DNA of 20,161 bases from Bacteroidaceae bacterium (GTDB lineage: Bacteria > Bacteroidota > Bacteroidia > Bacteroidales > Bacteroidaceae). Positions 178-18,646 of this stretch are shown here, piece by piece. Where the stretch lies: assembly GCA_017557475.1 (NCBI GenBank), contig JAFYYO010000366.1:1-20161 (forward strand), read 5' to 3'. The position numbers and the translations under genes are program-made. Position 1 is the stretch's first letter. The number at the start of each line of letters is the position of its first letter. A model generated the notes under the pieces. The model saw nothing but the letters and a program-made list of their open reading frames with translations. It ran no database searches and was not told the DNA's origin.

Positions 178-309
178 CAGGTGGCGTGTTAAACCTGAAA
201 ACATAACGTGTTACGATGCCAAACATAACGTGTTATGATTGCAAACATAACGTGTTATGATGACCAACATAACGTGCTTAGTTTTCCGACTAAGCACGCT
301 TTGTTTATA
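178..309. repeat. 22-bp-period tandem palindrome array A
   Basis: Units begin at 200, 222, 244, 266 and 288, exactly 22 bp apart, with a degenerate unit in the same phase at 178. The best units hold the near-palindrome CATAACGTGTTATG, with CGTG at unit positions 8-11. The unit at 288 has CACG at the same positions, so the core is flipped there. The degenerate first unit lies in its own hairpin: a 9-bp stem TTTTCAGGT (174-182) with ACCTGAAAA (193-201). The array follows the MFS stop codon. The same family recurs at 5142, 12626 and 18537. Confidence 0.85.
273..298 (+). terminator. Possible terminator hairpin at the end of array A
   Basis: CGTGCTTAGT (273-282) pairs perfectly with ACTAAGCACG (289-298) over 10 bp, with a 6-nt loop, and is followed by CTTTGTTT. 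The stem is made of the right half of one 22-bp unit and the left half of the next. The T-tract is weak, so intrinsic termination is an inference. Confidence 0.4.
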
Positions 310-5147: not shown

Positions 5148-5246
5148 GCTAGTTGCTCAACTAGCCACGCCTAGTTTGCCAATTAGCCACGCCTAGTTTG
5201 CCAATTAGCCACGTCTAGTTTGCTAATTAGCCACGCTTAGTTTGGA
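5142..5246. repeat. 22-bp-period tandem palindrome array B between convergent genes
   Basis: Full units start at 5159, 5181, 5203 and 5225. The best contains AACTAGCCACGCCTAGTT, an 18-bp imperfect palindrome with CACG at positions 8-11, then TGCC. A shorter first unit (5142-5158) reads AACTAGGCTAGTT and lacks 5 nt of core; its AACTAG contains the stop codon of the GH92 gene. The array ends 4 nt before the stop codon of the convergent acyltransferase, so it fills the whole gap between the two genes and could serve as a bidirectional terminator. Confidence 0.9.
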
Positions 5247-12370: not shown

Positions 12371-12407
12371 CGAAAAACTTTCCATACTCCGCATATTTTT
12401 ACCATAA

Positions 12408-12615
12408 AAGTGAGAAAGTGGGAAAGTGTCTTATGGACAGGAATAGCTTTTTATGGTAAAAAGGAAGGAGAAGATAATATCTAAACAGATATTATATAAT
12501 AATTAATATTATAATTATAATAAATAATTATAACTCTAATAATAATCTTATAGAGTTGTCGTGTTACCGTCCATTTCGCTTCCTGTCCATAAGACACTTT
12601 CCCACTTTCTCACTT
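12408..12615. repeat. Perfect 36-bp inverted repeat around an AT-rich core
   Basis: The arm at 12408-12443 begins AAGTGAGAAAGTGGGAAAGT, and its exact reverse complement lies at 12580-12615. The 136-nt interior is about 91% A+T over 12471-12550 and contains smaller palindromes: ATAATATCT with AGATATTAT around a 4-nt loop, and AACTCTA (12532-12538) with TAGAGTT (12551-12557). A second, nested 14-bp perfect inverted repeat, TTTTTACCATAAAA (12396-12409) with its complement at 12449-12462, encloses the left arm. No open reading frame or target duplication is seen. It may be an invertible segment, a MITE-like element, or a structured regulatory DNA. Confidence 0.9.
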
Positions 12616-12625
12616 CGCCCATCGC

Positions 12626-12691
12626 AACTACGCTCGTGAAGTTTGCAAACTACACACGTTATGTTTGCCAACTATCCACGCTTAGTTGCAA
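12626..12691. repeat. 22-bp-period tandem palindrome array C downstream of tsf
   Basis: Three units start at 12626, 12648 and 12670. The second contains AACTACACACGTTATGTT and the third AACTATCCACGCTTAGTT, both with CACG at unit positions 8-11. The first is degenerate (AACTACGCTCGTGAAGTT). The arms within the units are mixed types and pair less well than in arrays A and B. The array lies between the tsf terminator and the 36-bp inverted repeat. Confidence 0.75.
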
Positions 12692-12696
12692 ACAAA

Positions 12697-12729
12697 AATG
12701 CCTCACAAGCTTTTGGCTCATGAGGCATT
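12697..12729 (-). terminator. Intrinsic terminator of the rplM-rpsI-rpsB-tsf operon
   Basis: AATGCCTCA (12697-12705) pairs perfectly with TGAGGCATT (12721-12729) over 9 bp. On the minus strand the stem is followed by a run of five T (TTTTTG), 22 nt after the tsf stop codon. This is the clearest intrinsic terminator in the window. Confidence 0.85.
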
Positions 12730-13744: not shown

Positions 13745-13773
13745 AGTACAAATAATAATTAAAAGTTATTATT

Positions 13774-13858
13774 GGAATAGGGATTATGGATTAGGGAATA
13801 GGGTTTGACAGTTCCCTTTTGCAGATGCCACTAATCTCTAATCCCTAATCTCTAATCT
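13774..13858. repeat. Opposed arrays of a 7-bp repeat between rpsB and tsf
   Basis: Four tandem 7-mers of GGATTAG type start at 13774, 13781, 13788 and 13795. Four of the complementary CTAATCT/CTAATCC type start at 13831, 13838, 13845 and 13852. The two arrays face each other across about 28 nt and would form a long imperfect stem in the rpsB-tsf transcript. The position in the gap suggests an attenuator or mRNA processing element, but repeat slippage could also have made it. Confidence 0.85.
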
Positions 13859-18536: not shown

Positions 18537-18646
18537 AACGTCGCACGTTACGATTGCAATCATAACACGTTATGTTGGTCATCATAACACGTTACGATTG
18601 CCGTCATAACACGTTATGTTTTCCATCATTCCACGGCGTCTTTGTG
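18537..18646. repeat. 22-bp-period tandem palindrome array D
   Basis: Five units start at 18537, 18559, 18581, 18603 and 18625. The clearest contain CATAACACGTTATG, the exact reverse complement of the array A motif, with CACG at unit positions 8-11 in every unit. The last unit keeps only the core and merges into a hairpin. The array lies between the flippase stop and the promoter of the second GH92 gene. Confidence 0.88.

Follow-up and report, generated by a model that had tools for sequence, protein, structure and literature searches.

Four intergenic arrays of palindromic units lie in the window, by which we mean the whole 20,161-nucleotide stretch of Bacteroidaceae DNA under analysis. Each consists of 18-bp imperfect palindromes separated by 4-bp linkers at a period of exactly 22 bp, and in all four CACG or CGTG occupies unit positions 8–11, in register, which bears out the single family proposed in the initial annotation (Table 1). 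Among the neighbouring genes named there, those for GH92, EF-Ts (tsf) and the flippase-type protein (Polysacc_synt_3) were confirmed by Pfam, whereas the 48-aa fragment called MFS has no Pfam match. The statement that every array lies just past a stop codon holds for array 4, which starts 4 bp beyond that of the flippase-type gene, but not for array 2, which begins over the stop codon and nearly fills the convergent GH92/acyltransferase spacer, nor for array 3, situated past the tsf terminator in the spacer that runs from the tsf 3′ end to the FAH-hydrolase gene. The outermost units that had been included keep the phase, but two of them are weak: the unit at 178–195, placed at the start of array 1, is in register yet barely palindromic (2/9 pairs), and the last unit of array 4 forms 4/9 pairs.

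Table 1 Positions and make-up of the arrays and associated hairpins in the window.
Feature	Positions	Strand	Make-up
Array 1	200–305	−	Five 22-bp units starting at 200, 222, 244, 266 and 288; centres CGTG on the + strand, the last unit alone CACG; arms AACATAA/TTATGAT
Terminator-like hairpin	273–309	+	Last two units of array 1, linker-centred: CGTGCTTAGT-TTTCCG-ACTAAGCACG, then CTTTGTTTATA
Array 2	5159–5242	+	Four units AATTAGCCACGCCTAGTT-TGCC
Array 3	12626–12687	+	Three units; centre of the first is CTCG
tsf intrinsic terminator hairpin	12699–12728	−	ATGCCTCA/TGAGGCAT; T-tract from 12698 down (minus strand); read by eye
Array 4	18537–18642	+	Five units; arms ATCATAA/TTATGTT; CACG on the + strand

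Three-unit runs of CRYG palindromes, of which 0.06 were expected per window in 200 Markov-1 simulations, were seen nine times with overlap, all within arrays 1, 2 and 4. Array 3 is within chance by the Markov-1 test, having two CRYG units with a summed pairing of 11 against 12 for the best simulated two-unit run; it was accepted because the tsf–FAH spacer also carries 22-bp arrays in L017, L008, L016, L024 and L041, and an array adjoins the FAH gene of L020. At the site of array 1, upstream of the rep/GH92 genes, the window is one of 12 sequences in which the array begins 49–53 bp past a stop codon, L002 and L006 being assigned to the site by that distance with their flanking genes unchecked. 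L001 and L019 also have an intrinsic-terminator-like hairpin at this site, though its stem letters are others. A leader containing TGATTTTCA and GGCG separates the stop codon from the array (148–199 in the window) and recurs at the same site in L001, L017 and L019; the upstream gene of L017 has a different end, yet both leader and array are retained there.

Unit format and phase

The relatives comprised 77 loci that a search with the PorU protein had picked out, mostly in MAGs named Bacteroidaceae, Prevotellaceae or Bacteroidales (mostly from rumen or gut), together with stretches of some of the genomes concerned. In the noncoding DNA of 78 sequences (these loci and the window), CRYG palindromes are paired 77 times at 22 bp and 43 times at 44 bp, and at most 4 times at each other spacing from 10 to 60 bp; the called coding DNA of the same sequences has a smaller peak, with 19 pairs at 22 bp versus at most 11 elsewhere. 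In 1.59 Mb of four related genomes (G001, G002, G005 and G029), 131 pairs are spaced by 22 bp, 77 by 44 bp, 6 by 21 bp, 6 by 43 bp and 1 by 42 bp, every other spacing between 15 and 49 bp being devoid of CRYG-palindrome pairs. A scanner that leaves the centre nearly free found 46 noncoding arrays of at least two units in 21/78 sequences, versus 0.33 chains per shuffle of that noncoding DNA, and 9 chains in called coding sequence. The symmetrised unit reads A-A/T-C-N4-CRYG-N4-G-T/A-T with a TGCA-like linker, its two middle letters being complementary in 5% of units in a set picked by CRYG. The CACG/CGTG centre originally described survives in that CRYG is the commonest type, but it is not exclusive, GCAG, CTGC, CTAG, CTGG and CACT occurring as well. 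The Bacteroidetes −7 box is TAnnTTTG, paired with a −33 element; its presence inside the units was set aside by reasoning, since TA is not conserved and 22 bp is not the −33/−7 spacing.

For alignment, the best three-unit piece scoring at least 30 was taken from each array of at least three units, with L033, L042 and L068 excluded and the pieces oriented by centre. The resulting 38 pieces align gap-free; their unit-centred arms pair in 73.8% of cells, versus 31–44% in slid controls, with a covariation of 0.478 versus 0.178 after shuffling, and their linker-centred arms pair in 75.6% of cells. Because arms pair around both kinds of centre, the array can be read as a series of alternating inverted 11-bp half-sites. 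The unit number peaks at 4–5 in G001, G005 and G029, whereas in G002 it peaks at 3–4 with a tail to 11; GC is phased at 11 bp in the former three genomes and at 22 bp in the GC-rich G002. Palindromic 22-bp arrays with AATT linkers and arms beginning with G, at L006:8785–8846, L044:16833–16894 and L070:4224–4263, are perhaps a sister family. TTAA-centred units with a GGTTAACC core also occur in 22-bp arrays of G005 and G029 (L153:11432–11537 and L154:14721–14870).

Copy number and placement

Stretches of 400 kb each contain 46 arrays in G001, 62 in G002 and 37 in G005, and a 390-kb total from G029 contains 33, called coding hits included, which, scaled from these stretches to genome size, suggests a few hundred arrays per genome; 6/145 arrays in the first three lie inside called genes. 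Among spacers of at least 100 bp, delimited by hexamer-trained gene calls and tRNAs, 40 of the 64 convergent, 61 of the 175 codirectional and 19 of the 77 divergent ones are arrayed in G001, G002 and G005 taken together, and 11/17, 14/62 and 4/25, respectively, in G029; G001 has arrays in 14 of its 16 convergent spacers. In the first three genomes, convergent and divergent spacers differ in occupancy (Fisher p = 7e-6), and codirectional and divergent ones show no clear difference (p = 0.14). Of 83 codirectional arrays, 59 are closer to the upstream stop than to the next start (medians 63 versus 140 bp; p = 1.5e-4), G029 being even (7/14), and cruder gene calls gave a placement bias in the same direction. 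Gene ends with a spacer of at least 80 bp bear arrays in 39/79 cases in the G001 stretches and in 25/117 in G005, and a codon-bias proxy for expression is equal at arrayed and non-arrayed gene ends (p = 0.15–0.86 in the four genomes). The 3′-end bias is real but not absolute, and the placement at gene 3′ ends first described is too narrow in that divergent spacers are arrayed as well. In the related genomes, to which the test was confined, copies proved many and biased to gene ends, so that neither of the outcomes that would have refuted the initial annotation, few copies or no bias, arose.

Strand symmetry and terminators

Serial hairpins had been put forward as the form of the units in RNA; as 3′-UTR elements that end transcription or shield the mRNA from 3′ exonucleases, we consider such hairpins distinctly unlikely. 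Selected pairing in the sense-strand RNA is expected to leave more G·T than A·C among the non-Watson–Crick arm pairs. After removal of six duplicate arrays (of all kinds), and with each pairing frame counted separately, 87 codirectional arrays show no such asymmetry on the sense strand, having 179 G·T versus 187 A·C in the unit frame and 160 versus 149 in the linker frame; per array, 32 have more G·T, 37 have more A·C and 18 are tied, and the bootstrap 95% interval of the G·T share is 0.437–0.543. Intrinsic terminators, serving as the control, deviate in the expected direction, though weakly (41 versus 27). Sense-strand centres occur in both orientations (CGTG 128, CACG 109), and the window arrays are predicted to fold into nested, not serial, structures, although their RNA folding z of −3.5 to −1.4 would suit hairpins.

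The distribution of terminator-like hairpins bears on the RNA model in both directions. Such hairpins are commoner at arrayed gene ends (36/131 versus 59/672), and at 129 arrayed gene 3′ ends they overlap the array in 27 cases, precede it in 20, follow it in 7 and are lacking at 79 (classes can overlap); the overlaps, the 3′-end bias and the hairpin formed by the last two units at the array 1 site, present in L001 and L019 too, where its stem has other letters, all favour hairpins in the transcript. However, of the 65 ends that leave 40 nt or more ahead of the array, 19 already have a hairpin there on the sense strand, versus 6 antisense and 1.2 shuffled, an arrangement to which array 3 of the window belongs. 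The equal G·T and A·C counts and the terminators ahead of arrays speak against mRNA hairpins, and the RNA model is disfavoured. The sole match of the window to Rfam at the gathering score is the L13-Bacteroidia ribosomal protein leader (RF03127; 15769–15840, 54.5 bits), and the arrays are unmatched. Palindromic candidate RNAs are listed in Bacteroidetes in the cited part of PMC8040213.

Distribution

The breadth searches used a three-unit covariance model and are insensitive, since the model covers the AAC/CRYG/GTT format only and 26 candidates per genome were scored in a family sample and 13 in a phylum sample. With the number of scored candidates capped, the genome counts are lower bounds: at least 39/101 genomes of a genus sample match at E ≤ 0.001, at least 24 of them with ten or more matches; at E ≤ 0.0001, at least 11/201 genomes of the family sample match and at least 1/395 of the phylum sample, G001 itself. 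Matches (E ≤ 0.1 or 0.001) count both strands and overlapping places and are not array counts. On a PorU tree of 50 rows, made by a quick method and annotated with match counts at these two thresholds, 24 of the 28 counted genomes in a 29-row clade have ten or more matches; the array-poor genomes inside it are L007 (2 matches), L011 (5), L018 (6) and L022 (0), so that the arrays are dispensable. The seven-genome sister clade has 0–1 matches. A second array clade (L026, L032 and L075, with 75–105 matches; sister L023, 5) has the same format in another dialect, AACACAACGTGTTGTGTT, and in regions chosen around model matches 16/22 of its arrays have exactly four units and 21/22 lie beside a called 3′ end. 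The fewest changes on the tree are five. Viral contigs gave 0 matches to one 26-mer of the G001 dialect.

Stable positions and changing letters

Between G005 and G029, whose PorU DNA is 90.6% identical, both flanks could be matched to the compared G029 stretches for 17 of the 37 G005 arrays, and 16 of these 17 places are arrayed over threshold, the last being seen by eye; in the reverse comparison of 16 G029 arrays, 15 of the G005 places score over threshold and the remaining one again shows an array by eye, so no place is empty among the 17 and 16 arrays compared. Lengths are kept within 2 bp in 14 of the 17, the other 3 being about one unit (21–22 bp) shorter. Array identity ranges from 0.66 to 1.00, with a mean of about 19% of letters differing, out-of-register lost-unit arrays included, and many arrays diverge more than their flanks. 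A compensatory-change test gave 46 double changes versus 21.4 expected, only 12 of them from pair to pair, with lost-unit arrays out of register, and for these reasons is given no weight as proof.

In distant species, the same spacers are often arrayed with different arms. The short spacers of L018 are without arrays, as is the tsf–FAH spacer of L022, and in both the tsf–FAH spacer is compact and has a plain terminator-like hairpin in place of the array of relatives; at the place of array 4, L017 has a 35-bp spacer from which the array is absent. The arm words are AACTTAA/AACGTAA in G001, AACGCCG/ATCCCCG/ATACATA in G002 and AACTTCA/AACTTCT/AACTTAA in both G005 and G029; the window and G002 each have at least two arm classes. 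Among 29 arrays at the four window sites, similarity is 0.655 in the same genome, 0.597 at the same site and 0.574 with neither in common; the excess of same-genome over same-site similarity was reached by 2/2000 permutations, and the same-site signal itself by 98/2000. Geometry and positions are mostly kept between species, and the arms change as covarying palindromes with genome-wide dialects.

Such turnover can also be read as that of neutral or selfish minisatellites, free of function and tolerated away from promoters, in which template switching keeps the arms complementary and gene conversion produces the dialect; we regard this as a real possibility, if not a probable one. Hairpin template switching amounts to quasi-palindrome correction and, together with gene conversion, could yield covarying arms of free letters, and the neutral origin is retained because covarying arms are something that a protein does not need. 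It would account for the many arrays more diverged than their flanks, for the equal strength of unit- and linker-centred pairing, which would follow from correction of any inverted pair, and for genome-wide dialects and array-poor relatives. Less readily explained by it are the exact 22-bp phase, the narrow unit number (four in 16/22 arrays of the second clade, though G002 is broad), the stable positions between G005 and G029, the same format with another dialect in the second clade, and the arrays in 14/16 convergent spacers of G001.

Comparison with known repeat systems

The arrays resemble BIMEs in placement. As far as the cited parts of the reports describe them, REP and BIME-2 elements of enterobacteria and pseudomonads are likewise high-copy extragenic imperfect palindromes, often clustered and mostly in convergent and codirectional spacers, for which DNA-level and RNA-level roles have been suggested, BIME-2 having gyrase sites (PMC3733652, PMC2817692, PMC6379681). 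In E. coli, both BIME-2 and the DNA downstream of highly transcribed operons are enriched in gyrase sites, and the motif of gyrase spans about 130 bp with GC phased at 10.75 bp, according to the portion of PMC6379681 used here. The working model closest to the arrays is the BIME-2 of E. coli, whose gyrase feature is visible in the arrays as GC phasing only (11 bp in G001, G005 and G029, but 22 bp in G002). In size and copy number the likeness to REP/BIME, with over 100 extragenic copies per genome, extends to more than 100 units in each stretch, as follows from the 46, 62, 37 and 33 arrays counted, with a palindrome of 18 bp, just under the 20–40 bp of that class.

Unlike REP/BIME, however, the arrays have an exact tandem phase of 22 bp, positions stable between G005 and G029, and varying, covarying arms. 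As to a palindrome shared by all copies of a genome, dialects run genome-wide, yet arms differ between arrays and units. Membership of the BIME class fails on the end tag, the GTAG/CTAC/CGTC/GACG linkers being only 14/697, and on the RAYT. Spread by a RAYT (Y1 transposase) would agree with short extragenic palindromes in high copy and with a 3′ placement as for REPs, in the part of PMC3733652 concerned, but is very improbable: a Y1_Tnp (PF01797) match (E ≤ 1e-5) is present in 8/24 array-rich versus 15/77 other genus-sample genomes (Fisher p = 0.17), was not found in G001, G002, G004, G005 or G006, and no array place is empty in the G005–G029 comparison. RAYT mobilisation was rejected with 16/24 array-rich genomes having no Y1_Tnp match, in MAGs that may be incomplete.

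BrickBuilt, a minisatellite-MITE of Porphyromonas gingivalis, shares intergenic tandem repeats, a similar unit (23 nt) and a Bacteroidales genome with the present arrays and, in the excerpted description, lies within a MITE that has a leader, a tail and terminal inverted repeats, in 19 copies in ATCC 33277; its consensus, AGAYCATARTATCCTCTCRTRTG, compared by eye, differs from that of the 22-bp unit (PMC4596501). CRISPR arrays also have a regular period and partly palindromic repeats, but the arrays here have 4-nt linkers, no unique spacers and many loci. A species-specific uptake or recognition signal with dialects, after the manner of the DUS of Neisseriaceae, would fit the genome-wide arm dialects, high copy number and 3′ placement and is nevertheless extremely doubtful, as DUS are single short words, whereas the arrays are phased tandem palindromes with two or more arm classes in one genome (window, G002). 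High copy number and genome-wide dialects are the features common to both, DUS dialects of Neisseriaceae being the subject of PMC3630211. Within the open-access literature searched, no description of 22-bp phased palindrome arrays was found, including the portions covered of PMC4596501, PMC3733652, PMC6379681, PMC8040213, PMC3116915 and PMC2817692.

A putative binding platform at the ends of transcription units

The stacking of dimers on one face of the helix, suggested at the outset, is the reading that fits best. We tentatively propose, with a confidence somewhat short of even, that the arrays are putative helically phased double-stranded binding platforms at transcription-unit ends, on which a dimeric or higher-order protein docks and separates neighbouring units. 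Binding to one face of double-stranded DNA is indicated by the exact phase together with strand symmetry, a stable position and a preferred number of units, and a job at transcription-unit ends by the convergent enrichment. In the predicted mechanism, tandem sites of two-fold symmetry would recur at two helical turns, with 11-bp half-steps and alternating CRYG and TGCA-like centres; on the usual array of 4–5 units (84–106 bp) at the end of a transcription unit, a dimeric or higher-order DNA-binding or DNA-wrapping protein may dock, whether a dedicated regulator, a nucleoid protein or, as at BIME-2, DNA gyrase; and the docked protein would separate neighbouring transcription units through the handling of torsion or read-through, chiefly between convergent genes. 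The data themselves establish the format, phase and placement, the copy density in relatives, conserved positions with arm turnover, the arm dialects and the lack of sense-strand RNA asymmetry; the bound protein, its stoichiometry and its role in torsion or insulation are what we infer.

Against such a platform stand the 19/77 divergent spacers with arrays, the array-poor genomes in the clade, the unit numbers of G002 and the variable, mutually complementary arms, which a protein site does not require. The equal codon bias at arrayed and non-arrayed ends speaks against a plain gyrase or high-transcription model, as does, for plain gyrase, the 22-bp GC phase of G002 instead of 11 bp. A gene-end insulator, in which a DNA-wrapping protein (e.g., four dimers on four 22-bp units) would sit at hundreds of ends while half-site letters co-evolve genome-wide into dialects with position and phase fixed, is a rather unlikely proposal. 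An element keeping its geometry, not its sequence, would escape sequence-based repeat and RNA searches. If protein-bound, the arrays would give this rumen and gut lineage an architectural system that spans the genome and in which the separation of convergent genes would be directly testable; if neutral, they would show clearly that palindromes and phase can be preserved by mutational mechanisms.

Other repeats in the window

At 442–2850, in tandem with the GH92 gene, the window encodes an 802-aa protein that contains repeated segments and is without a Pfam match. A long, MITE-like inverted repeat (12407–12443, AAAGTGAGAAAGTGGGAAAGTGTCTTATGGACAGGAA, and its near complement at 12580–12615), with about 135 bp of mostly AT-rich DNA in between, lies upstream of the FAH-hydrolase gene, and L017 has a diverged version of it. 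Between rpsB and tsf, at 13768–13858, an inverted repeat has a heptad period (GGATTAG... / ...CTAATCC); the same layout is found in L004, L008, L014, L018, L024 and L043, in some with other heptads, the form being kept and the letters not.
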